Shown: in pieces, positions 904 through 11,762 of the stretch | Numbering within the stretch: the stretch's first letter is position 1 | Layout: every line of letters starts with the position of its first letter | DNA from: an uncultured Oscillospiraceae bacterium | GTDB taxonomy: Bacteria > Bacillota > Clostridia > Oscillospirales > Acutalibacteraceae | NCBI GenBank assembly: GCA_900552605.1 | Contig: USAR01000023.1 | Span: forward strand, 1-11,924 | Direction of reading: 5' to 3' | Length of the DNA stretch: 11,924 nucleotides | Notes under the pieces: generated by a model | Told to the model about the DNA's origin: nothing | Database searches by the model: none | Seen by the model: only the letters and a program-made list of their open reading frames with translations | Position numbers and translations under genes: made by a program

Positions 904-1092
904 TTAGCGCATGCTGTTTTCATACGATTCGATCATCTTTTTAACCATCTGACCGCCGATTGAACCTGCCTGCTTAGAGGTAAGGTCACCGTTGTAACCC
1001 TGCTTGAGGTTTACGCCTACCTCGTTAGCTGCTTCCATCTTAAAACGGTTAAGAGCCTCACGAGCCTCGGGAACTACGTTCTTGTTAGACAT
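904..1092 (-). CDS. Small acid-soluble spore protein, alpha/beta type
   Basis: This 62-residue protein belongs to the alpha/beta-type SASP family, which coats and protects DNA in the dormant spore core and is degraded at germination by the protease GPR. The N-terminal half (VVPEAREALNRFKMEAANEVGV, residues 6-27) matches the conserved first block and includes the GPR-cleavage region around EAANEV. The second block, GSIGGQMVKKMIESY (43-57), carries the conserved glycine pair. Length is normal for the family. The ATG is preceded by AAAGGAGTG with good spacing. It is monocistronic and ends before the 809-842 terminator. Forespore expression by sigma-G is expected for the family, but I could not find a convincing sigma-G promoter in the 110 bases upstream. 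It is the best evidence that the organism sporulates. Confidence 0.95.
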   Translation of the reverse strand: MSNKNVVPEAREALNRFKMEAANEVGVNLKQGYNGDLTSKQAGSIGGQMVKKMIESYENSMR

Positions 1093-1424
1093 TCTTATTC
1101 ACTCCTTTTTGTTTTGTTTTTTTGCGTTTGCAATAGTATTGTATGAGGTTTATGATTAAATATAAGAGGGAAAGTAAGCCATAGTTTTTACCATTTAATG
1201 ATCGAAGATTTTAATATAAATATTTCCATATTTTCACAGTGCGGATAGCTTGATTTTTTGTGCTGCATTCTGATTGCATAATTGCCGCATTTTATTACTG
1301 TTGTCTCAAAGTTTGTTGCTCTTAGGAGGTATTTTACACTACATTAAAGAATAAACGCCGAAGAGTTGGATTCTTTCGGCGTTTATTCTTTAATATTAAT
1401 CATAATGGATTTTTAATTATATTA
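1093..1424. other. Intergenic stretch of 332 bases with one long hairpin
   Basis: The RBS of the spore protein gene lies at its left end and a 20-bp hairpin at 1343-1394. An AGGAGG at 1324-1329 is followed by no usable start codon, so it is not a supported translation signal. I see no gene, tRNA or clear promoter in the remainder. Confidence 0.5.
1343..1394. terminator. Long perfect hairpin, probable terminator of the 1425-1955 gene
   Basis: Twenty perfectly paired bases (1343-1362 with 1375-1394) enclose a 12-base loop. The core is AAACGCCGAA/TTCGGCGTTT and the ends are AT-rich. It begins about 30 bases beyond the stop codon of the minus-strand gene, where a terminator is expected. The U-tract is interrupted, so it is a less standard terminator than the others here. 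Its symmetry would let it work in both directions. Confidence 0.6.
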
Positions 1425-1955
1425 TCAGTATTCAATATCACGCGGTTCTATATCCGAAAGCAGCAATATTGCAAATGCGGCAAGCAGTGCATAATCCGTT
1501 ATTTTGTTTTTTAGCTTCACAGGATATTCGGCAGGCTCTACCGTGTTACCGCCGAGTGTGATTATTCTTCTTTGCAGACAAACAGACGCTGTGTTTTCGC
1601 CTATGCTTGAGAGTATAAGCGTGCTCTCCTCGCTCATTCCGCAAACTATGGTTTGGATATTATTATTCATCAAAATTTTAAGCGCGCCTTTATCGGAGCT
1701 GTATACCACGCCTTTATACTCCTTCGGAATTGCAAGTCTGCAAGAATCCGCAATTTCTCCTATCATAACAATAATGCCGCTTCCGGCATCGATTTTTGCA
1801 CGGGTTGAACATTCAACAAGCAGAAATTTCGGCTCTGGTTCAACCTCGTAAATATTAGAGCCGCTAATGGCAATTATACCGTAGTGCTCAAGCACGCGCT
1901 TAATTTCATCTGCAATATAGCCGCCTGTTATTCCGAATAATACCACCGTTGTCAA
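1425..1955 (-). CDS. Unrecognised 176-residue protein
   Basis: The start is a TTG at 1953-1955, chosen because AAGAAGG lies seven bases upstream and no upstream ATG is in frame. The N-terminus reads TTVVLFGITGGYIADEIKRVLEHYGI, resembling the first strand, glycine loop and helix of a nucleotide-binding or Rossmann-like fold. The middle alternates hydrophobic strands and helices (FLLVECST, GIIVMIGEIA, TIVCGMSEESTLILSSIG). The tail LLAAFAILLLSD is hydrophobic, but I would not call it a membrane segment. Cysteines occur at several positions without an obvious metal motif. I cannot assign a family or function. Good RBS, codon use like its neighbours and a following hairpin argue that it is a real gene. 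It stands alone, so context offers no functional clue. Confidence 0.75.
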   Translation of the reverse strand: MTTVVLFGITGGYIADEIKRVLEHYGIIAISGSNIYEVEPEPKFLLVECSTRAKIDAGSGIIVMIGEIADSCRLAIPKEYKGVVYSSDKGALKILMNNNIQTIVCGMSEESTLILSSIGENTASVCLQRRIITLGGNTVEPAEYPVKLKNKITDYALLAAFAILLLSDIEPRDIEY

Positions 1956-2219
1956 GCAAAAACCTTCTTTATCTTTTTATGCGGTGTTTTTTTACTGGTA
2001 ATTATTGAATACTTTAATTTGCAAAATCCGATAGAACAGGCTCCATTAAAATATTCACTCGTTTTAATATAATATAATCATATAATTGCATTTGCTGTTT
2101 TGCAAAGGTAATTTCAACACACGGTTTTATTCTAAACACTTTTCTTTTTAATATACAGAATAATGACTTGATATTTGCAAAAGATAAAGATACATAATTA
2201 CGAAAGGAGCGTTTAAGGT

Positions 2220-2432
2220 ATGTTTGACAAAATCTGCTTATTGCTTTCAATAATCGGGTCACTTAACTGGGGTCTTGTAGGTCTTTTTAAATTTGACCTT
2301 GTTGCGTGGATTTTCGGCGGTTCGGACGCAGTCTTGGCAAGAATCATATATGTTATAGTTGCGCTGTCCGGCATTTGGTGCATCTCGCTGCTTTTCCGCG
2401 ATAATACCGAGGTTATTGAGAGAAAGAGCTAA
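2220..2432 (+). CDS. DUF378-family small membrane protein
   Basis: The 70-residue product matches the DUF378 family: an N-terminal transmembrane helix with the signature IIGSLNWGLVGLF (residues 11-23), a short FDLVAWIFGG loop, and a second helix RIIYVIVALSGIWCISLLF (41-59), then a charged tail. The function of the family is unknown. AAAGGAG at 2203-2209 lies ten bases before the ATG. A weak sigma-A candidate, TTGATA (2168-2173) with CATAAT (2193-2198) and a 19-base spacer, lies upstream. It is monocistronic and convergent with yajC. Confidence 0.9.
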   Translation: MFDKICLLLSIIGSLNWGLVGLFKFDLVAWIFGGSDAVLARIIYVIVALSGIWCISLLFRDNTEVIERKS

Positions 2433-2483
2433 TGCAAATATTATCTGTTTAAAAGACATATTGATCAGGCGTTATCAATATTT

Positions 2484-2529
2484 AAAAAACGACAGTCGGC
2501 GGAAAGTTCTCCGCAGACTGTCGGTTTTT
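2484..2529. terminator. Bidirectional terminator shared by the DUF378 gene and yajC
   Basis: The stem GACAGTC/GACTGTC (2491-2497 with 2516-2522) is extended inward by GCGG/CCGC and outward by a C-G pair and A/T runs. T-runs follow the stem on both strands. It sits between two convergent genes, about 50 bases past the DUF378 stop and 12 bases past the yajC stop. Confidence 0.85.
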
Positions 2530-2540
2530 ATAGACATTAA

Positions 2541-2936
2541 TTACTTCTCAGCTTTTTTCTCAGCTTTTTTCTCAGCCTTTTTCTCAGCAGCGGCTTTCTT
2601 TTCGTTTTCCGCGTTCTTCTTAACTTCGTCGCGGACTGTGGTGTTTGTCTGAATAGCTGTACGCAAAAGCTTGGTCTTGGAGTGGTCGGCAGGAGACTCA
2701 ACAATAATGCTGTCGTCCTTAATCGAAACAACCTTGCCGCAAATGCCGCCGATGCTGATTATCTCATCGCCGATTTGCAGATCATTGCGCATTTTTTCCT
2801 CTTGCTTTTGTTGCTTTCTCTGCGGTCTTATCATAAAGAAATAGAAAACCGCAACCAGTACAACCAACATAATTATCATTGACCACGGATTTTGTTGCTG
2901 AGACGTTGCGTTAGTTGCCAATACGTTAAAATTCAT
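2541..2936 (-). CDS. yajC: Preprotein translocase accessory subunit YajC
   Basis: YajC is a single-span inner membrane protein that associates with SecDF and the SecYEG translocon. This 131-residue protein has one transmembrane helix at about 19-36 (SMIIMLVVLVAVFYFFMI), followed by the family hallmark IRPQRKQQKQ (36-45) and the conserved cytoplasmic block LQIGDEIISIGGICGKVVSI (53-72). The C-terminus is an Ala/Lys/Glu-rich tail ending in AEKKAEKKAEK, encoded by near-perfect 12-base repeats; such charged tails are variable in the family. The ATG has GGAGG eight bases upstream. The gene appears monocistronic here rather than next to secD/secF or tgt, where it is often found. Confidence 0.95.
   Translation of the reverse strand: MNFNVLATNATSQQQNPWSMIIMLVVLVAVFYFFMIRPQRKQQKQEEKMRNDLQIGDEIISIGGICGKVVSIKDDSIIVESPADHSKTKLLRTAIQTNTTVRDEVKKNAENEKKAAAEKKAEKKAEKKAEK
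2545..2590 (-). repeat. 12-base tandem repeat in the 3' end of yajC
   Basis: About 3.8 copies of TTCTCAGCTTTT (plus strand) lie at 2545-2556, 2557-2568, 2569-2580 and 2581-2590. The first two are identical and the third differs by one base. On the coding strand each unit adds the four residues AEKK, so a change in copy number would keep the frame and alter only the length of the charged tail. Confidence 0.85.
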
Positions 2937-3337: not shown

Positions 3338-3359
3338 TATAATGTGATTGCAATTGCAA
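3338..3359 (+). promoter_or_regulatory. Promoter -10 box and palindromic operator candidate of the glycosidase gene
   Basis: A perfect TATAAT at 3338-3343 has only a poor -35 match (TGAATA at 3315-3320, 16 bases of which the spacing is near normal). Four bases downstream lies the perfect 12-base palindrome TTGCAATTGCAA (3348-3359), across the expected transcription start. Its position and form suit a repressor of the LacI type, which often bind palindromes of this kind at sugar genes; that assignment is inference. Confidence 0.45.
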
Positions 3360-3416
3360 AAAATATATGTTATGCTTTTATTAACAAAATTACAGTATAT
3401 TTTTGGAGGAAAATCT

Positions 3417-5906
3417 ATGAGCGACAAAAGATTTGTTTATCACGTAACACCGGAAACAAATTCCGAGAGTGTTGTCGGCGGAAAAAAATACCGTTTCAGC
3501 ATTCTTTCGGCAGGACTTATCCGTTGTGAGTTTGATGAAGACGGAGTTTTTGAGGACAGAGCAACTCAAACGGTTGTTAACAGGCGCTTTGAGTCTACAC
3601 ATTACAGTGTTGACGATTGCGGCGAAACACTGAAAATCATTACTGATTCCGTTGAAATTACATATAAAAAGAATCAACCTTTTTCGGCAGAATCACTTTC
3701 TTTCAAGCTGCTTATAAAGCCTTACAGTGTTTGGAATTACGGCGAGGATTTTGAGGATCTCGGCGGCACGGCAAGAACTCTTGACGCTGTTAACGGTGAG
3801 CTGCCGCTCGGTCGCGGTGTTTGCTCGCGTGACGGCTTTTCGATTATTGATGACAGCTCTACCGCAGCTTTAGGTGATGACGGTTGGGTAACCCTGAGAA
3901 ACGGCAGCAGCACTGATGTTTACTTCTTTGGTTTCGGACGCAATTATTTAGCCGCTGTAAAGGCTCTGTATATGCTCACCGGTGCGCCTGCAATGCTGCC
4001 GGCATATGCTCTCGGCAATTGGTGGAGCAGATATTATAAATACACCGAGGAGAGCTACCTTGCGCTGCTCGATAAGTTCAAAAATGAAAACATTCCGTTT
4101 TCCGTTGCCGTTGTGGATATGGATTGGCACACTGTAGATGTGCCCGACAGTGTTAACGCACTTGAAGAAAAACCGCTTACCGGCTGGACAGGATACACTT
4201 GGAATGAGAAGTTTTTTCCAAACTACAAGCGGTTTTTAAAAGAGCTTAAAAAGCGCAATCTGCACACAGCGCTCAATTTGCATCCTGCAGACGGTGTTGC
4301 GGCACATGAACAACAGTATGAGGAAATGGCAAAGGCTGTAGGTATTGACCCCAAAACCAAGCGACGCGTTAAATTTGATGTGCTGAACAAAGAATTTATG
4401 AAGAGCTATTTCGATATACTTCACCATCCATATGAAGATGACGGTGTTGATTTTTGGTGGATGGATTGGCAGCAGGGAAAAAGCTATGCATGGCTGCACG
4501 AGCCGAATATCGGCGGTAATCTTAAAAACCCTCTGGAGTTCATCTCGCCGCTTTGGATGTTGAATCACTATCACATAGTGGATATTATGCGCAACCGAAA
4601 GCGTCCGATGTTTTTCTCTCGCTTTTGCGGAGCGGGAAGTGCAAGGTATTCAATCGGATTTTCGGGTGACGCTATCATTACTTGGGAATCGCTTAAGTTT
4701 CAGCCCTATTTTACAGCAACCGCTTCAAATATCGGTTACAGCTTTTGGAGTCACGATATCGGCGGTCATATGTTGGGTTACCGTAACGATGAGCTTTATA
4801 TCCGCTGGTTACAGCTTGGCGTGCTGTCGCCGATCAACAGGCTGCACAGCTGCAACGAAGAGTTTATTCACAAAGAGCCTTGGTGCTATTCTGCAGAAAC
4901 CGAACGCATTGCAAAGCGTTGGCTGCGTCTTCGTCACGAGCTTTTTCCGTATATTTACACTGCTTGTTACAACAACCATTCAAAGCTTGTGCCCATGATT
5001 CAGCCTATGTATTACAGCTATCCCGAAACAGGAGCTGCATATGAATGTAAAACACAGTATATGTTTGGCAGCGAGCTGATGATATCTCCGATAGTTGAGG
5101 CAAACGATAATTTAGATAAGCTTGGTAAAGCCGAGGTTTGGTTTCCTAAAGGAGATTGGTACGATTTCTTTACAGGCGATCACTATTATAGCAAGCGAAA
5201 CCGCAAGCTGAATGTTTACAGACCGTTGGACGTATCGCCTGTTTTTGCAAAAGCCGGTGCAATAATTCCTATGACAGCAGACTGTGAGGACAATGAACTT
5301 AAGCCGAGAGATACCGTTACGGTGCACGTTTTCCCAAATGCTGATAACACCTACACAATGTATGAGGACAGCGGTGAATATTTGGATTTTGAGAACGGTG
5401 AGTTTGCAAAGACCGAGTTTTGGCTGAAATGGCAGGCAGAGCCGACATTTACAATTAAAGCAGCTTGCGGCAAGACGGAGCTTTTACCGCAAAACAGAAC
5501 GTGGATAGTGAAACTTCGCGCTTTTGATGAAAGCGTTATTCCAACAGCCTTTATTAACGGAAGCAGCGCTGAAATTGAAAAATACATCGACGAGGAGGGC
5601 ACGGTCTGCGTAAAGATAACCGCTTCTATTGACCACGATATAACAATAAAACTGAACGGCGAAAAGCTGACAAAAGAAAATGAGAGCAACAGAGAAGCAT
5701 TTATTAAGATACTTGATATTGCACAGGTTTCATTTAAAAGAAAGAACGAGCTTCTTTCAGTACTCGATGCGGCCGATAGCAATTGGCAGTGCTCTTGGAA
5801 TTTTAATAATTCCTCCGAAAATGAATTTCATCTTGTTGGCGCTCTTAAGGAAAAGTTTTTAAGAGAGAGCGAGGAATTTCCTGAGGATCTGCTTAAAGGA
5901 ATTTGA
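3417..5906 (+). CDS. Family-31 glycoside hydrolase (alpha-glucosidase/alpha-xylosidase type)
   Basis: The 829-residue protein starts at the ATG 3417-3419, seven bases after GGAGG; an in-frame start at 3348 lacks an RBS and falls inside the promoter palindrome. It has no signal peptide, so it probably acts in the cytoplasm on imported oligosaccharides. The N-terminal beta-domain spans about 1-190 and the catalytic barrel about 190-525. Key motifs are VVDMDWH (232-238), WWMDWQQG with nucleophile Asp350, the acid/base Asp418 in GFSGDAIITWESL, and FWSHDIGGH (443-451). A beta-sandwich and DUF5110-like region follow (about 575-750). The last 80 residues form an extra charged segment I cannot place. 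GH31 enzymes cleave alpha-linked glucosides, xylosides or related sugars by a retaining mechanism; the exact substrate cannot be read from the sequence. Monocistronic. Confidence 0.92.
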   Translation: MSDKRFVYHVTPETNSESVVGGKKYRFSILSAGLIRCEFDEDGVFEDRATQTVVNRRFESTHYSVDDCGETLKIITDSVEITYKKNQPFSAESLSFKLLIKPYSVWNYGEDFEDLGGTARTLDAVNGELPLGRGVCSRDGFSIIDDSSTAALGDDGWVTLRNGSSTDVYFFGFGRNYLAAVKALYMLTGAPAMLPAYALGNWWSRYYKYTEESYLALLDKFKNENIPFSVAVVDMDWHTVDVPDSVNALEEKPLTGWTGYTWNEKFFPNYKRFLKELKKRNLHTALNLHPADGVAAHEQQYEEMAKAVGIDPKTKRRVKFDVLNKEFMKSYFDILHHPYEDDGVDFWWMDWQQGKSYAWLHEPNIGGNLKNPLEFISPLWMLNHYHIVDIMRNRKRPMFFSRFCGAGSARYSIGFSGDAIITWESLKFQPYFTATASNIGYSFWSHDIGGHMLGYRNDELYIRWLQLGVLSPINRLHSCNEEFIHKEPWCYSAETERIAKRWLRLRHELFPYIYTACYNNHSKLVPMIQPMYYSYPETGAAYECKTQYMFGSELMISPIVEANDNLDKLGKAEVWFPKGDWYDFFTGDHYYSKRNRKLNVYRPLDVSPVFAKAGAIIPMTADCEDNELKPRDTVTVHVFPNADNTYTMYEDSGEYLDFENGEFAKTEFWLKWQAEPTFTIKAACGKTELLPQNRTWIVKLRAFDESVIPTAFINGSSAEIEKYIDEEGTVCVKITASIDHDITIKLNGEKLTKENESNREAFIKILDIAQVSFKRKNELLSVLDAADSNWQCSWNFNNSSENEFHLVGALKEKFLRESEEFPEDLLKGI

Positions 5907-6303: not shown

Positions 6304-7044
6304 TTATTTTGCCAGGAATCTTGTAAGGAAGTCCTGTGTCTTTTGCTGCTTAGGATTTGCGAAAAACTCCTTCGGCTCGCCCTCTTCACAGATAACACCG
6401 TCAGCCATAAACACAACGTGTGTTGAAACATCACGCGCAAACGCCATTTCGTGGGTTACAACAATCATCGTAAGTCCCTCGCTTGCAAGAGCACGCATAA
6501 CTTCAAGCACTTCTCCCACCATTTGTGGGTCTAAAGCGGAGGTAGGCTCGTCGAAAAGCAGTACCTCAGGTTCCATCGCAAGAGCTCTTGCAATAGCAAC
6601 ACGCTGCTTTTGTCCGCCTGAAAGCTGAGCCGGCTTTGCGTTAATAAACGGAGCCATTCCAACCTTTTCCAAGTATCTCATTGCAGTTTCGTGCGCTTCT
6701 GTGCGAGATTTTTTAAGAACCGAAACCTGTCCTGTAATGCAGTTTTCAAGCGCAGTCATATTATTGAAGAGGTTAAAGCTTTGAAAAACCATACCAACCT
6801 TTGCGCGATAGCGGGAAATTTGAAATTCACTGTCCTGAATGTTTTTACCGTGGTAGAGTATCTCACCGCTTGTTGGCGTTTCCAAAAGGTTTATGCAACG
6901 CAGCATTGTGCTTTTACCCGAGCCCGAAGCGCCGATGACGCTAAGAACTTCACCTTTATCCACCTGCAAGTCGATCCCCTGCAAAACCTTGTGGTCACCG
7001 AATTGCTTTTGAAGATTTTTGATTTGAATTACTTTTTCAGCCAT
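6304..7044 (-). CDS. Amino-acid ABC transporter ATPase (probable lysine importer)
   Basis: This 246-residue cytoplasmic ATPase powers the importer encoded by the two genes upstream of it. All nucleotide-binding motifs are intact: Walker [10 protein letters not shown] (38-46), Q-loop VFQSFNLF with Gln88, signature LSGGQKQR (141-148), Walker B VLLFDEP (161-167), D-loop SALD (169-172) and His198 in VVTHEM. The sequence is typical of the polar amino-acid group (GlnQ, HisP, ArtP). The start is the ATG at 7042-7044, seven bases after AAAGGAG. A longer in-frame reading up to 7137 overlaps the permease gene and should be discarded. The RBS lies inside the permease 3' end and the genes are one base apart, so translation is probably coupled. 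Lysine specificity is inferred from the riboswitch. Confidence 0.95.
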
Positions 7045-7045
7045 A

Positions 7046-7810
7046 TCAATTCTCCTTTGCAATGTGCAACTCGGCGTCGGGATCGCTTTGCGAGCCGAAT
7101 ACCGTGTAGTTATCCTTGCCGTCGAGCCTCTTTTCAATGTATCTCAACAGCCTTGTTATTGTAAAGGTGAGAATGAAATACAGCACGCAAACAACCAGAT
7201 AGGTTTGGAATGTTTGAAAATTTTGGCGTTTGATAATTCCTGCAAAATAATATAGCTCGGTAACACCTATAACATTAAGCACGGAGGTGTCCTTAATGTT
7301 AATAACAAATTCATTACTTACAGAGGGCAGAATATTGCGCATAACCTGCGGTATAATTACTTTAAGCATTGTCTGGCGGTGGGTCATACCGATAGACAAT
7401 GCGCCTTCAAACTGTCCGCGGTCGATTGAAATTATACCGCCGCGCACGATTTCCGCCATATAAGCGCCGGTGTTGATTGAAACAATAAGTATACCGGAGG
7501 GTATAAGCGGCAGCGTTTCACCGCCTGTTGCAAAGGCATAACCCCAATAAATAACCATCGACTGAACCATCATAGGTGTGCCGCGGAACACTTCAACATA
7601 AATGGCGATGATGCCGTTTAAGATTCTGTGCAGCGTGCGCAGAACGGGATTTTTGGAAATAGGGGCTGTGCGAACAACACCTGTTAAAAGACCCACAATA
7701 AGTCCGGCAACGGTGCCCGTCAGGGCAATGAGCATTGTATTGCTCACGCCCTGAAGCAGCTGCGGATAATATTTTGCAAAAATGTTTATAACGTCGTTAA
7801 AAAAACTCAT
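7046..7810 (-). CDS. Amino-acid ABC transporter permease (probable lysine importer)
   Basis: This 254-residue membrane protein belongs to the HisM/GlnP family and probably forms the homodimeric channel of the importer. It has about five transmembrane helices (roughly 24-46, 66-90, 102-125, 165-190 and 201-222), the family motif FRGTPMMVQ (75-83), and the cytoplasmic EAA loop [15 protein letters not shown] (132-146) continuing to KVIIPQ, which docks on the ATPase. The tail of about 30 residues after the last helix is polar. GGAG precedes the ATG with good spacing. The gene lies 34 bases after the binding-protein gene and one base before the ATPase gene. A single permease gene suggests a homodimer. 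Confidence 0.94.
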
Positions 7811-7844: not shown

Positions 7845-8723
7845 TTACTTCTTAATGATAACAACAAGATTGGATTCATAGTAGGTGTCGGTAAAGTCGA
7901 TTTCCTTTTCACGCTCTGCTGTGGGGCTCATACCTGCAACAATTGCATCGATAGTGCCTGATTCGAGAGCAGGGAGGAGTGAATCCCATTCAATTGAGTA
8001 AATTTCAAGCTTAAGTCCGAGCTTGTTGGCAACATACTGTGCAATTTGAACATCATAGCCGTTTGCATAGAGTCCCTGCTTGCCTTCGCCGCTGATCGGC
8101 ACTGCGCCTGTTGTCTTGTTTTCGGTGTCTGTCCAGTTGTAAGGCTCATATGCACATTCCATACCAACCTTTAAAGTGCCGGTGGTTTTTGCAGGCGCGT
8201 CGCAGCTAACTGCAAACTTGTCGATTTTTTCGCCGGCATTCATGCTAACTATTTGCTCCATAAGCTGTGTCTTTTGTTCTTCGGTAATTTCGGAAAGCAC
8301 TTCGTTAATCTTGTTGCGCATAGCGGAGCCGTCTTTAAGACCGATCGCAATGCCGACGTCGGCTGCTGTTGCCTTAAAGCCTGTGTCATTGTTCTTCAAA
8401 GGAAGGTATGTAAGGCTGTCGTCGGTTTTGCAAACTGAAAAAGCAGTGGGCTCCTCAGCAACATAACCGTCAATAGCGCCGCTTTTGAGTGCTGTAAGCA
8501 AATCTGCAAATTCCGGATATGTTGAAGAGTCTACGTCTTTAATCTGTGAAAGCGCGTCAGCGTGGAAAGTGCCCTTTTGAGCTGCGATTTTTGCGCCTTC
8601 AAGATCTGCAAGGCTCTTTGCGTTTTTAATGTCTTTCCGGCTGCTCTTACCGCAACCTGCGAAGCATGCCGCACAAAGCACCGCGGCGAGTAAAACGGAT
8701 AAAATTCTTCTTCCTGTGTTCAT
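7845..8723 (-). CDS. Probable lysine-binding lipoprotein of the ABC importer, circularly permuted
   Basis: The start is the ATG at 8721-8723, nine bases after GGGAG; the ATG nine bases further upstream abuts the GGGAG and cannot use it. The 292-residue protein has a lipoprotein signal peptide (RRILSVLLAAVLCAACFAGC, acylated Cys24 likely). In the usual family the LKVGMECAYEPYNW segment comes first and the KSLADLEGAK segment follows the hinge. Here the order is reversed. Residues 34-118 are lobe 2 (NAKSLADLEGAKIAAQKGTF, LKSGAIDGYVAEEPTA). Residues 119-158 are the return into lobe 1 (VGIAIGLKDGS to EEQKTQLMEQIV). A linker of about 25 residues follows, then lobe 1 (184-292: LKVGMECAYEPYNW, NGYDVQIAQYVANKLGLKLE, IEWDSLLPALESGTIDAIVAGMSPTAER) ending at the hinge strand YYESNLVVIIKK. 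The expected ligand residues are present, including Arg271, Thr52 and acidic residues near 85-91, so the protein looks functional. Confidence 0.93.
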   Translation of the reverse strand: MNTGRRILSVLLAAVLCAACFAGCGKSSRKDIKNAKSLADLEGAKIAAQKGTFHADALSQIKDVDSSTYPEFADLLTALKSGAIDGYVAEEPTAFSVCKTDDSLTYLPLKNNDTGFKATAADVGIAIGLKDGSAMRNKINEVLSEITEEQKTQLMEQIVSMNAGEKIDKFAVSCDAPAKTTGTLKVGMECAYEPYNWTDTENKTTGAVPISGEGKQGLYANGYDVQIAQYVANKLGLKLEIYSIEWDSLLPALESGTIDAIVAGMSPTAEREKEIDFTDTYYESNLVVIIKK

Positions 8724-8752
8724 TTGAAACATCTCCCAAAAAGTATTATAAT

Positions 8753-8790
8753 AAAAAGCCCGTGAACCTCAAGAAAAGGTATCACGGACT
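8753..8790 (-). terminator. Intrinsic terminator of the lysine riboswitch expression platform
   Basis: On the minus strand AGTCCGTGA pairs with TCACGGGCT (8782-8790 with 8757-8765) and ACCT with AGGT further in, with one bulge, followed by TTTTT. It lies between the riboswitch aptamer and the binding-protein gene, inside the leader, so it can only serve as a conditional terminator. Confidence 0.85.
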
Positions 8791-8821
8791 TGATATTTGA
8801 AATAAAAGAAAATATTGCCAA

Positions 8822-8987
8822 TGATAGCTCTCCACATTTAAAATATGACAGTCCGATATCTTTTAAATATCGTCCCAGCAGAAAGCCGTCGGCAAACAAA
8901 AAACTGCTTCGGCGGAATTGCCTTTCACACACAACCGATTGCCGTCGTTGTTGTGCGTTACTTTTCGCATCCGCATCCTCTATCACG
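8822..8987 (-). promoter_or_regulatory. Lysine riboswitch (L-box) aptamer
   Basis: The minus-strand leader carries the conserved L-box elements in order: TGATAGAGGATGCG at the 5' side, AAGTAACGCA, GTGAAAGGCAATTCCGCCGAAGCAG, CTGCTGGG, then GGACTGTCATAT and GTGGAGAGCTATCA. The ends TGATAGAGG-type and GCTATCA pair as P1. The hairpins GCAG/CTGC, CGATAT/ATATCG and CATAT/ATGTG are visible. The 3' strand of P1 (UAUCAUUGG) can instead pair with the terminator's 5' arm (CCGUGAUA), and AAUAUUU with AAAUAU, forming an antiterminator. Lysine binding should stabilise P1, free the terminator and switch the operon off. Confidence 0.93.
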
Positions 8988-9016
8988 TTTGTTATTTGTT
9001 ATTTAATTTTGAGTGA

Positions 9017-9045
9017 ATTATAACGCTAAATCATTCAATTGTCAA
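9017..9045 (-). promoter_or_regulatory. Sigma-A promoter of the lysine transporter operon
   Basis: On the minus strand a perfect TTGACA (9040-9045) and a perfect TATAAT (9017-9022) are 17 bases apart. The transcript would start near 9010, giving a leader of about 287 bases that contains the riboswitch and terminator. A second TATAAT at 8745-8750 (minus) with TTGAGG upstream overlaps the terminator hairpin and is judged less likely. Confidence 0.88.
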
Positions 9046-9154
9046 TAGAATAATTAAAAAAACTTTATTTTTCCGCAAAGAATACAAAAATTATCCTAAA
9101 AATGTCGTGTTTATTGGATAAAATTAAAAATAATCAAAAAGACGAAAATAGCTA

Positions 9155-9183
9155 TTGACAATGTATTGCTTCAATGATATAAT
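9155..9183 (+). promoter_or_regulatory. Sigma-A promoter of the tRNA-Leu gene
   Basis: A perfect TTGACA (9155-9160) and a perfect TATAAT (9178-9183) are 17 bases apart, with transcription expected about ten bases before the mature tRNA. The promoter is divergent from that of the lysine operon, with about 110 AT-rich bases between them. Confidence 0.9.
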
Positions 9184-9199
9184 AATTATCGTTGCAAAT

Positions 9200-9283
9200 G
9201 CGAGTGTGCTGGAACAGGCAGACAGGCACGTTTGAGGGGCGTGTGTCTTCGACGTACGGGTTCAAGTCCCGTCACTCGCACCA
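9200..9283 (+). tRNA. tRNA-Leu (anticodon GAG), CCA encoded
   Basis: The acceptor stem GCGAGTG (9200-9206) pairs with CACTCGC (9273-9279), followed by discriminator A and an encoded CCA. The anticodon stem CACGT/GCGTG holds the loop TTGAGGG, giving anticodon GAG, which reads CUC and CUU leucine codons. A long variable arm (GTC-TTC-GAC) is characteristic of the class II tRNA-Leu. The T-arm is ACGGG-TTCAAGT-CCCGT. Length is 84 bases. It is a single-gene transcript with its own promoter and terminator. Confidence 0.96.
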
Positions 9284-9320
9284 AAAATCGACAGGTAACG
9301 ATAGTGCTTGTCGATTTTTT
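9284..9320 (+). terminator. Terminator of the tRNA-Leu gene
   Basis: AAAATCGACA immediately after the CCA pairs with TGTCGATTTT (ending 9318), with a loop of about 15 bases and a long T-run continuing to about 9330. It also provides the 3' end processing boundary of the tRNA transcript. Confidence 0.85.
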
Positions 9321-9396
9321 TGTTTTTGTTATTATATTATTCGTAATATGTAAAAAGCCTCAAGTAATTTAAAACCATTCCGAAAGGTAAAATGCG

Positions 9397-9960
9397 ATGC
9401 TTGAATTTATACAAGATACAGATTGGTCGATATTGCACTTCATCCGTGACGCCTTGCATTGCGGAGTACTTGATTACATAATGCCAAGGCTTACGCTGCT
9501 CGGTAACGGCGGTATTATCTGGATTATTGCCGCAGTTGCCATGGTCGTTTCAAAGAAATACCGAAAACACGGTGTAATATTACTTTTAGGTTTGCTGTTG
9601 GGCTTGCTTGTCGGCAATGTTGCTCTTAAAAACATTGTTGCGCGTGAAAGGCCGTGCTGGAGCGAAAGTGTGCAGTTGCTTATCAGCAATCCTAAGGATT
9701 ATTCTTTTCCGTCAGGGCACACGCTTTCTTCGGTGATTGCGGCATTTGTAATTACAAGTGCGGATAAAAGATTCGGTTTTATTGCTGTGCCGTTAGCTTC
9801 GCTTATTGCGTTTTCAAGGCTTTATCTCTATGTGCATTTTCCGTCGGATGTAATAGCGGCGGCGGTACTCGGTGTTTTAATAGGCTGGTTTACAGTGCAC
9901 TTTTTGGGTAAGGGTTATGACAGGTTGCTTTTAAAAAAGCACGCGGAAGCTGCAAAATAA
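9397..9960 (+). CDS. PAP2-family membrane phosphatase
   Basis: The 187-residue integral membrane protein has the full phosphatidic acid phosphatase type 2 signature: KNIVARERP (K78, R85, P86), PSGH (105-108) and SRLYLYVHFPSD (S140, R141, H147, D151). His108 and His147 are the expected catalytic histidines. Several membrane helices are visible (about 36-52, 59-77, 111-120 region, 127-146 and 152-171). Such proteins remove phosphate from lipid phosphates or from undecaprenyl pyrophosphate, the carrier recycled in cell-wall synthesis; sequence alone does not decide between them. The start follows GAAAGG by about nine bases. A short out-of-frame ATG precedes it. It is probably monocistronic. Confidence 0.92.
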   Translation: MLEFIQDTDWSILHFIRDALHCGVLDYIMPRLTLLGNGGIIWIIAAVAMVVSKKYRKHGVILLLGLLLGLLVGNVALKNIVARERPCWSESVQLLISNPKDYSFPSGHTLSSVIAAFVITSADKRFGFIAVPLASLIAFSRLYLYVHFPSDVIAAAVLGVLIGWFTVHFLGKGYDRLLLKKHAEAAK

Positions 9961-10082
9961 AGCTTTGTTTTTAATAAAAACTCTGTAATGTGATTATATG
10001 TATTTTTGCCGATATAAACCCAGGTACAGTTGTGAAGCCGGCGGCGAAAAAACCTCAGTTTACATAAATTATATCATTTAGC

Positions 10083-10108
10083 AAAAAGGTCGTGCATACG
10101 GCTTTTTT
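10083..10108 (+). terminator. Terminator of the PAP2 gene
   Basis: AAAAAGGTCG pairs with CGGCTTTTT around a TGCATA loop, with one bulged G, followed by a long T-rich run. It lies about 120 bases past the PAP2 stop and just before the TetR promoter. Confidence 0.7.
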
Positions 10109-10130
10109 GTTTTTTATTTCAAAAAAACAC

Positions 10131-10159
10131 TTGACAAGTGACCGAACGGTAACTATAAT
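10131..10159 (+). promoter_or_regulatory. Sigma-A promoter of the tetR-like operon
   Basis: A perfect TTGACA (10131-10136) and a perfect TATAAT (10154-10159) are 17 bases apart. A consensus promoter like this is expected to be strong unless repressed. Confidence 0.9.
10136..10155 (+). promoter_or_regulatory. Operator candidate 1 of the TetR-like regulator
   Basis: AAGTGACC-GAAC-GGTAACTA is an imperfect palindrome filling the spacer between the -35 and -10 boxes. It shares the half-sites AAGTNACC and GGTNACT with a second copy 26 bases downstream. A TetR dimer bound here would block RNA polymerase. Confidence 0.7.
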
Positions 10160-10161
10160 TA

Positions 10162-10181
10162 AAGTAACCATTAGGTCACTT
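10162..10181 (+). promoter_or_regulatory. Operator candidate 2 of the TetR-like regulator
   Basis: AAGTAACC-ATTA-GGTCACTT is the second copy of the palindrome, covering the expected transcription start. The spacing between the two centres is 26 bases. Confidence 0.7.
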
Positions 10182-10233
10182 TGAGTTTTGGCTCATTAAG
10201 ACAGAATAACATTTTACGTAAAAGGGTGCGATT

Positions 10234-10842
10234 ATGACAGGGAATACAAAACAAAAAATTGCGGAAACGGCGCTTAATCTTTTCTCACAAAAGGGTTATC
10301 TCGGCACTTCTATGAATGATATAGCACGAGAGCTGGGAATTACAAAGGCAGCGCTATACAAGCATTATGAGAGCAAGAGCAAGATTCTTGAAAGTATTAC
10401 AAAGCAAATGAGAGACGCGGATTTTGAAAGGGCAGAGGAATATGAAATGCCGCAGGAAGAACCGGGCAAATGTGCCGAGGCGTATATGCACACGCCGACG
10501 TATAAGATACGTGCATACAGCATTGCTCAGTTCAGACATTGGACCGATGAGGGTTTCGCGGCAAGCTTTCGGAAAATGCTGACACTTGAGCAATATCGCG
10601 ATGAAAAAATGGCGGAGCTTTATCACAACTATTTGGCAACGGGTCCGCTTTTGTATATGGCGGAAATTTTTAAAGAAATTGCGGAAGATAAAAGCGACGC
10701 AATGCAGCTGGCACTCGATTTTTACGGTCCTATGTTTTTGCTTTACAGCGTGTATGACGCAGCGCCAAACAAACAAGATGTTATTAAAATGCTTGAAAAA
10801 CATATAGATTTGTTTACCGAAAAAATAAAAAGGAGAGGCTGA
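10234..10842 (+). CDS. TetR/AcrR-family transcriptional repressor
   Basis: The 202-residue protein has a typical TetR N-terminal DNA-binding domain: KIAETALNLFSQKGYLGTSMNDIARELGITKAALYKHYESKSKIL (residues 8-52), with the recognition helix around TKAALYKHY. The remainder is the helical ligand-binding and dimerisation domain, which varies between members, so the inducer cannot be read. AAAGGG lies seven bases before the ATG. It heads an operon with a flavodoxin-like protein two bases after its stop and a small membrane protein. Two matching palindromes in its promoter suggest it represses its own operon. Confidence 0.94.
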   Translation: MTGNTKQKIAETALNLFSQKGYLGTSMNDIARELGITKAALYKHYESKSKILESITKQMRDADFERAEEYEMPQEEPGKCAEAYMHTPTYKIRAYSIAQFRHWTDEGFAASFRKMLTLEQYRDEKMAELYHNYLATGPLLYMAEIFKEIAEDKSDAMQLALDFYGPMFLLYSVYDAAPNKQDVIKMLEKHIDLFTEKIKRRG

Positions 10843-10844
10843 TA

Positions 10845-11342
10845 ATGGTAGTTGCAATTGTTTATCAAACGAATACCGGCAGCACGCGCCGATATGCCAA
10901 AATGCTTGGCGAAAAAACAGGACTGCCTGTACATGATATTAAATCGGCGAAGAAAAAGCTTTTAAAAAACGCAAAAATTATCTATCTTGGTTGGGTAATG
11001 GCAAACAACATAAAAGGGCTTAAAGAGGCTGAAAAGTATTTTGATATAAACGCTGTGTGTGCAGTGGGAATGGATGCGCGTGAAGCACAGATTAAAAAAC
11101 TCAGAGAAAAGAACAGATTGCCGTACGGTCTGCCGTTGTTTTTGCTTGAGGGTAATTTTAATATTCAAAAGCTGCACGGTATTTATAAAATTCTTATGAG
11201 CGTAATGATAAGCTCACTTAAAAAAACCGAAAACCGCACTAAGGAAGATGAGCAAATGCTTGCTTTTCTGCTTGATGAAAAAGACAGAGTGAATGAGGAT
11301 AACCTTGAAAAGGCACTTACTTGGTACGTTAATTTGAAATGA
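10845..11342 (+). CDS. Flavodoxin-domain protein
   Basis: The 165-residue protein begins VVAIVYQTNTGSTRRYAKML, where QTNTGST (8-14) matches the phosphate-binding loop of flavodoxins that holds FMN. The next strand, IIYLGWVMANNIKGL (45-59), corresponds to the second flavin-contact loop, and LFLLEGNFNIQKL (98-110) resembles the GG-containing segment of flavodoxin-like protoporphyrinogen oxidases such as HemG. It is shorter than multi-domain flavoproteins and lacks a membrane anchor. It may carry electrons or act as a small reductase; HemG activity is not established by these matches. Its RBS AGGAG lies inside the end of the repressor gene, so the two are co-translated. Confidence 0.85.
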   Translation: MVVAIVYQTNTGSTRRYAKMLGEKTGLPVHDIKSAKKKLLKNAKIIYLGWVMANNIKGLKEAEKYFDINAVCAVGMDAREAQIKKLREKNRLPYGLPLFLLEGNFNIQKLHGIYKILMSVMISSLKKTENRTKEDEQMLAFLLDEKDRVNEDNLEKALTWYVNLK

Positions 11343-11351
11343 GGTGTATTT

Positions 11352-11762
11352 ATGAAATTGTATTTCGGGAATGCGGTAACGGCTGCTACAACCATTACAG
11401 TGCTGCTGCTTGTTGGGTTTATAGGTTACAGCGCTGCAACCGGAGCCGACATACAGTATTGGGGACGCAGAAGCGCACTGTTGCTTTTTTTCGGCTTGGT
11501 TGTTTGCTGCCTTGCCGCAACGAGAGACGGACTTGACAAGACTATTCAAAACACTATTGACGACAGCTGTGCGGCAGGTGTTTTCAGACTTATAAGTGTG
11601 CCGACCGTTGTTGGGTGCATTGGTGCGCTTATAATAATTATTGCTGCAATTGCGACACCGATTTCAAAATCGCAGGCGGCGCGTGAGGTCTGGTTTTACA
11701 TAATGTCGGGCGGTGTTATGTTGAAGATCGTGACGGTTGAGATTGCAAGAATTATAGCTTAA
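11352..11762 (+). CDS. Small membrane protein, four predicted helices
   Basis: The 136-residue product has four hydrophobic segments (about 8-29, 40-56, 80-101 and 113-135) with a polar loop at 57-79 (TRDGLDKTIQNTIDDSC). I do not recognise the family. GAGGTG lies five bases before the ATG, and the gene starts nine bases after the flavodoxin-like gene, so it is in the same operon. A membrane partner for the flavodoxin-like protein is possible but unproven. Conserved cysteines at 52-53 and 73 could be of interest. No terminator follows within about 150 bases. Confidence 0.85.
   Translation: MKLYFGNAVTAATTITVLLLVGFIGYSAATGADIQYWGRRSALLLFFGLVVCCLAATRDGLDKTIQNTIDDSCAAGVFRLISVPTVVGCIGALIIIIAAIATPISKSQAAREVWFYIMSGGVMLKIVTVEIARIIA

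Follow-up and report, generated by a model that had tools for sequence, protein, structure and literature searches.

The stretch of DNA analysed here (the window, 11,924 nucleotides) carries on its minus strand a three-gene amino-acid ABC importer operon, made up of a substrate-binding protein (SBP), a permease and an ATPase, behind a lysine riboswitch. The open reading frame of the SBP spans 7845-8732, with the ATG at 8723 (GGGAG upstream) as the likelier start; from this ATG the product has 292 amino acids, the same length as in P0002. The segments 1N, 2 and 1C named in the list are explained below it.

8817..8990, minus strand: lysine riboswitch aptamer RF00168, upstream of the operon (95.6 bits against a gathering threshold of 30)
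7845..8723, minus strand: circularly permuted SBP_bac_3 lipoprotein of 292 aa, order 2-1C-1N, probably lysine-binding (from sequence comparison)
8652..8723, minus strand: signal peptide and FAGC, which we take to be the lipobox; Cys24 of the 292-aa form is invariant in a 40-sequence alignment
8373..8627, minus strand: lobe 2 (NAKSLADLEG...), now the leading segment; TmArgBP domain 2 aligns to model residues 31-117, the exact borders being our choice
8235..8372, minus strand: C-terminal part of lobe 1 (1C), from sequence comparison, with exact borders again chosen by us
8181..8234, minus strand: linker between the former C- and N-termini (block pLDDT 92, 95 and 96)
7848..8180, minus strand: N-terminal part of lobe 1 (1N, LKVGMECAYEPYNW...), with the hinge strand NLVVIIKK at its end (from alignments, model and cut points)
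7046..7810, minus strand: ABC permease, BPD_transp_1, polar amino-acid type (profile matches)
6304..7044, minus strand: ABC ATPase; best NCBIfam matches TcyN, GlnQ and HisP, all below their cut-offs

Elsewhere in the window, a tRNA-Leu (gag) lies upstream of the riboswitch and on the other strand (9200-9283, plus strand), and an upstream tRNA match, one of them weak, is also present in 7 of 16 permuted loci described below. A small acid-soluble spore protein (904-1092, minus strand), YajC (2541-2936, minus strand) and a glycosyl hydrolase family 31 enzyme (3348-5906, plus strand) are consistent with a spore-forming, Clostridia-like host. A 176-aa ORF (1425-1955, minus strand) had no Pfam match at E ≤ 0.001.

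In canonical SBPs the chain runs from the start of lobe 1 (1N) through lobe 2 (2) and returns to lobe 1 (1C), whereas the chain of the window SBP is 2-1C-1N. The first-pass annotation, which named no strand, had read the protein as a lipoprotein signal followed by lobe 2 and only later by 1N ending at the hinge strand, and all the segments it quoted do lie in that order; its linker of about 25 residues corresponds to the approximately 18-25 residues seen between 1C and 1N. Solved SBPs align to the window protein as two pieces with their order swapped (residues 31-104 of AncQR match query residues 222-295, and 109-220 match 38-152). The canonical SBP L007 is 63% identical to the window protein over 115 columns in 1N and 51% over 133 columns in 2-1C, and its tblastn search against the window gave two matches only, in reversed order; each piece is therefore single, with no second copy nearby. 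The PF00497 (SBP_bac_3) profile scored 90.1 bits against a gathering threshold of 26.4, but only profile positions 19-92 of 132 were covered, aligning 76 of the 295 residues of the full reading frame (220-295), and the usual colinear order was absent, as in a permuted variant of the family. TIGR01096 (lysine/arginine/ornithine SBP) gave 110.7 bits in two stretches, below its cut-off of 256.35; a permuted chain is hardly able to reach a colinear cut-off, so the shortfall lowers membership by name only. With the same segments, cyclically rotated, and homology to a canonical protein, the window SBP is a natural circular permutant. An artefact of assembly, or two gene fragments joined by accident, as the odd piece order and the confined Pfam match might suggest, is practically ruled out by independent assemblies, since the order 2-1C-1N is shared by all 120 listed homologues (the best 120 of 4615 matches, with 7998 candidates scored), some on long contigs, and by 16 loci from other genomes of one family, and each piece occurs once in the window.

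The relatives of the window protein include both orders. Among 196 genomes of one family, 41 matched at E ≤ 1e-25, 16 with the permuted protein and 25 matching in 1N as canonical genes, and no genome of the 196 belonged to both sets; the 19 canonical-like loci fetched (of 25) were all canonical in order. A second search, of 146 genomes from this family, does not count as independent evidence. Window-type permuted protein was found in two of 295 genomes of an order-wide draw (E ≤ 1e-50) and in none of 196 genomes of a class-wide draw (E ≤ 1e-20). The lysine riboswitch precedes the operon in 15 of the 16 permuted loci, the sixteenth (L043) stopping at a contig edge, and was found in 6/9 and 14/20 canonical loci from the window's half of the tree. 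It was found in 0/20 loci from the other half and in 0/7 further loci (six of the type A group 2 introduced below and L027, whose place in the tree is not settled), absences that are soft because most loci came with only about 1.5 kb of flank. The canonical SBPs L007, L051, L054, L001 and L008, the nearest non-permuted rows to the window protein in the trees, share with it the operon and the lysine riboswitch and differ from it in having the order 1N-2-1C. In two other loci (L013 and L022) a canonical lysine-type SBP and the permease appear, by eye, to be fused in one ORF.

Permuted SBPs were also encountered in other parts of the family. With P0001 as query, the class-wide draw gave distant colinear matches (seven rows, 32-38% identity). 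A second group with the order 2-1C-1N (type A group 2) belongs to another part of the family and was present in 17 of 291 genomes of the same class (L070-L086), the class sampled being presumably Clostridia. A third order, 1C-1N-2, came to light in that search (type B; loci L087-L091, L093, L095, L097, L099, L101, L108 and L109). A type B query matched colinearly, over almost its entire length, in 28 of the 291 genomes, as counted from match rows that were not all read individually. In a further search the 120 homologues listed had the order 1C-1N-2 throughout, one of them (P0123) with extra pieces behind. This protein (424 aa) reads 1C-1N-2-1C-1N; its first 250 residues are 98% like type B P0160 and its end resembles type A group 2 by eye. 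P0123 was considered as a duplication intermediate and set aside, as it is known from one contig and has the type A group 2-like end, so that it may have arisen by chimeric assembly, or else represent an intermediate of duplication or of recombination. Fused frames were seen as well: in L130 a 765-aa ORF (8546-10840, minus strand) reads by eye 2-1C-1N-2-1C-1N followed by a permease part, that is, two SBP units in tandem, and adjoins a third type A SBP gene (10827-11699, minus strand), and in L082 a type A SBP and a permease-like part share one 537-aa frame (1351-2931, plus strand) without a lipobox match.

Requiring all three pieces and a 1N match below 1e-6 left 113 distinct ORFs (L027 is among those falling out); 67 of them were canonical, 34 were of type A and 12 of type B, proportions that are not natural frequencies since the ORFs were found with permuted queries. 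For phylogenetic analysis, 112 of them (the tandem ORF of L086 was left out) were combined with 11 proteins, the window's own and ten homologues; the resulting 123 rows were reduced to 100 by removing those more than 85% identical to a kept row, and to 97 for the careful tree by dropping the long-branch rows L002, L006 and L086. Sequences were rotated to a common order, their pieces were aligned separately, and trees were built on 100 and then on 97 rows. Window-type A proteins (20 rows) formed one group (support 100/99) within a 27-row set that includes seven canonical lysine SBPs (SH-aLRT 100). The tree contains five order changes for type A and three for type B, and its starred branches force as many. 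AU tests rejected a single clade for type A (p-value 5.2e-42), type B (p-value 2.6e-47) and both together (p-value 8e-7), values that are optimistic because the groups were named after the first tree had been inspected; one clade of all permuted forms is thereby ruled out. These tests show repeated order changes among which, as with parsimony, gains and reversals are indistinguishable; with the canonical order taken as ancestral, because the aligned solved SBPs have it, permutation would have arisen more than once in the amino-acid SBP family.

When 1N and 2+1C were analysed separately in quick trees, each built on few columns, the window protein came out nearest to the same canonical SBPs (L007, L051, L054 and L008), and a single type A clade was rejected on each piece (p-values 0.00095 and 0.0003). 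These trees bear on the view that 1N was taken from a different gene and that the similarity arose by convergence, with no rotation of one gene. Convergence has been proposed for the permuted TpMglB-2 (PMC4990184, in the part available), but for the window protein it is highly improbable given the agreement of the two trees and the 63% and 51% identity to L007. In the permease tree, 17 permuted loci grouped with seven canonical ones (100/99) and the canonical L007, L051 and L054 fell among the permuted loci; the latter formed one clade in 0 of 200 bootstrap trees, and a joint clade was still not rejected (p-AU 0.449). The permease tree is compatible with an SBP that changed while the operon around it was conserved.

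The points at which the chains were opened were mapped by aligning 46 permuted ORFs (45 loci, with two in L086) to a doubled canonical sequence, the numbers being approximate because the references differ. Type A chains begin at reference positions 94-118 and finish at 93-110, near where hinge strand 1 ends. Two ORFs depart from this, the tandem ORF of L086 and that of L032 (start at 59, with its alignment extending into the signal peptide); the late start of L043 reflects truncation by the contig edge. For each of the 12 type B chains the start falls within 167-175 and the end within 169-174, between hinge strand 2 and the last helix of lobe 2. Nearly all detected cuts thus lie at the two hinge crossings, a statement that covers proteins already sorted into these orders and is not general for the family, since segment-order searches see only cuts near both hinges. 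The cut points of the relatives agree with the opening of the chain at the hinge proposed in the first-pass annotation. The tandem duplication invoked there fared less evenly, fitting a more recent pair of relatives and having left no visible trace in the window's own lineage. In this pair, G662 (type B, L133) and G086 (canonical, L134), the genes flanking the SBP operon are shared, at 88% for one flank and 51-82% for the other, as are the permease (73%) and the ATPase (88%), and the DNA can be aligned both around and within the SBP gene, with readable breakpoints. In the permuted gene of G662, 1C (73% over 165 bases) is absent from the 3' end and follows directly on the lipobox codons; FTTVE-GKLIMATN, a stretch of the old N-terminus, is retained in the new linker. 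This pattern is expected if the gene was duplicated and the outer pieces were then lost, and a direct move of 1C might also produce it. Duplication intermediates were looked for in the lysine lineage and none was found. The VSC of the window linker was considered as a remnant lipobox and rejected, its Cys being missing in other permuted clades of the 40-sequence alignment.

The AlphaFold model of the window protein is a confident single chain (pLDDT 91.7) whose first part matches domain 2 and whose last part matches domain 1 of the TmArgBP crystal structure; a two-lobed fold is accordingly predicted, and segment order, separate trees of both pieces and this model together back the circular permutation. 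The best structural match of the model was OpuAC of B. subtilis, at 11-14% identity and with modest TM-scores (0.46-0.49 for 2b4m), in match lists from which a fold may be absent and still be possible. By sequence, only two Pfam families reached E ≤ 0.001, and neither is a betaine-binding family. Domain swapping into a dimer or oligomer, with 1N pairing with 2-1C of another chain, might be favoured by the short linker, and such swapping is known for TmArgBP; the monomer model is confident, however, with the linker predicted as ordered, and swapping appears improbable.

Lysine is the probable ligand. The SBP is encoded together with a permease and an ATPase behind a lysine riboswitch, as in a lysine importer; the riboswitch itself points to lysine metabolism and only indirectly to the ligand. 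The Arg of SPTAER, the T of QKGTF and the YxP[YF]NW motif, residues at the family's ligand positions, agree by eye between the window protein and L007 or across the 40-sequence alignment. An alternative is a permuted SBP for another cationic amino acid (arginine or ornithine), or one that serves sensing instead of transport: the sequence falls among polar amino-acid SBPs of varied ligands, but the riboswitch in 15 of 16 permuted loci and the permease and ATPase of the same operon make this reading unlikely. We hold with considerable confidence that the protein is the rotated SBP of a lysine importer, that it originated once from a canonical orthologue and that it should fold as an ordinary two-lobed SBP. 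The gene product would be lipid-anchored, with the old C- and N-termini joined by the short linker and the chain opening at the first lobe-to-lobe crossing; it is predicted to bind lysine between the two lobes of one SBP fold, most likely as an ordinary Venus-flytrap receptor, and would pass it to the permease and ATPase encoded downstream. The permutant probably arose in place within the lysine-SBP lineage, through a tandem duplication whose outer pieces were lost, with similar rotations occurring separately elsewhere in the amino-acid SBP family.

The cut points and the segment order of the model imply that the lipid anchor would enter at the hinge side of lobe 2 and not at lobe 1. Anchoring at the hinge may be of advantage, and the repeated rotation among lipoproteins is suggestive in this respect, with detection biased to hinge cuts. 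One could speculate, tentatively and with doubt prevailing, that amino-acid SBPs of Clostridia repeatedly permute in place, that all three rotations of the hinge-bounded segments exist, with the lipidated N-terminus leaving lobe 1 for a hinge crossing in both non-canonical ones, and that these were selected as hinge anchoring uncouples the tether from lobe motion or improves docking.

The two hinge crossings represent naturally tested cut sites for binding-protein sensors. A study cited in PMC7683729 bears a title on the use of circular permutation in FRET sensors. Permuted proteins may be covered only in part by family profiles. Close permuted and canonical relatives, a common operon and three rotations in one family make both the route and the functional effect of permutation testable.

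The first-pass annotation knew of no description of this arrangement, which was too narrow a view, as related ones have been published; permutation of SBPs was known before, and for amino-acid SBPs no prior description was found among the entries listed from the literature searched (in some cases 20 of 586 and 15 of 395 hits), which lay mostly outside subscription journals. The available portions of PMC2588589, PMC2912341, PMC2861598, PMC12667903 and PMC10087775 do not contain this case. In both published cases, as far as the accessible texts go, a very large distance separates the permuted SBPs from the canonical ones. TpMglB-2 (Tp0684) of Treponema pallidum, for which the name Cluster Bc was proposed (PMC4990184, in part), is like the window protein a natural circularly permuted lipid-anchored SBP, and it binds its sugar, glucose; the authors speculate on anchoring as a possible reason for its permutation. 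It has the type I, cluster B sugar-binding fold, with 13% identity between its permuted part and the canonical counterpart, and its homologues in treponemes and Gram-positives are described there as one family. Circular permutation relationships among glycine-betaine-binding proteins were reported in 2008 (PMC2395249, in part), with 2b4l, 1r9l and 1sw1 listed and B. subtilis OpuAC (2b4l) included; the text available is silent on which rotation each of these proteins has. At 11-14% identity, the betaine family bears a distant structural likeness only to the window protein, which, unlike that family, belongs to amino-acid SBPs and has close canonical relatives.
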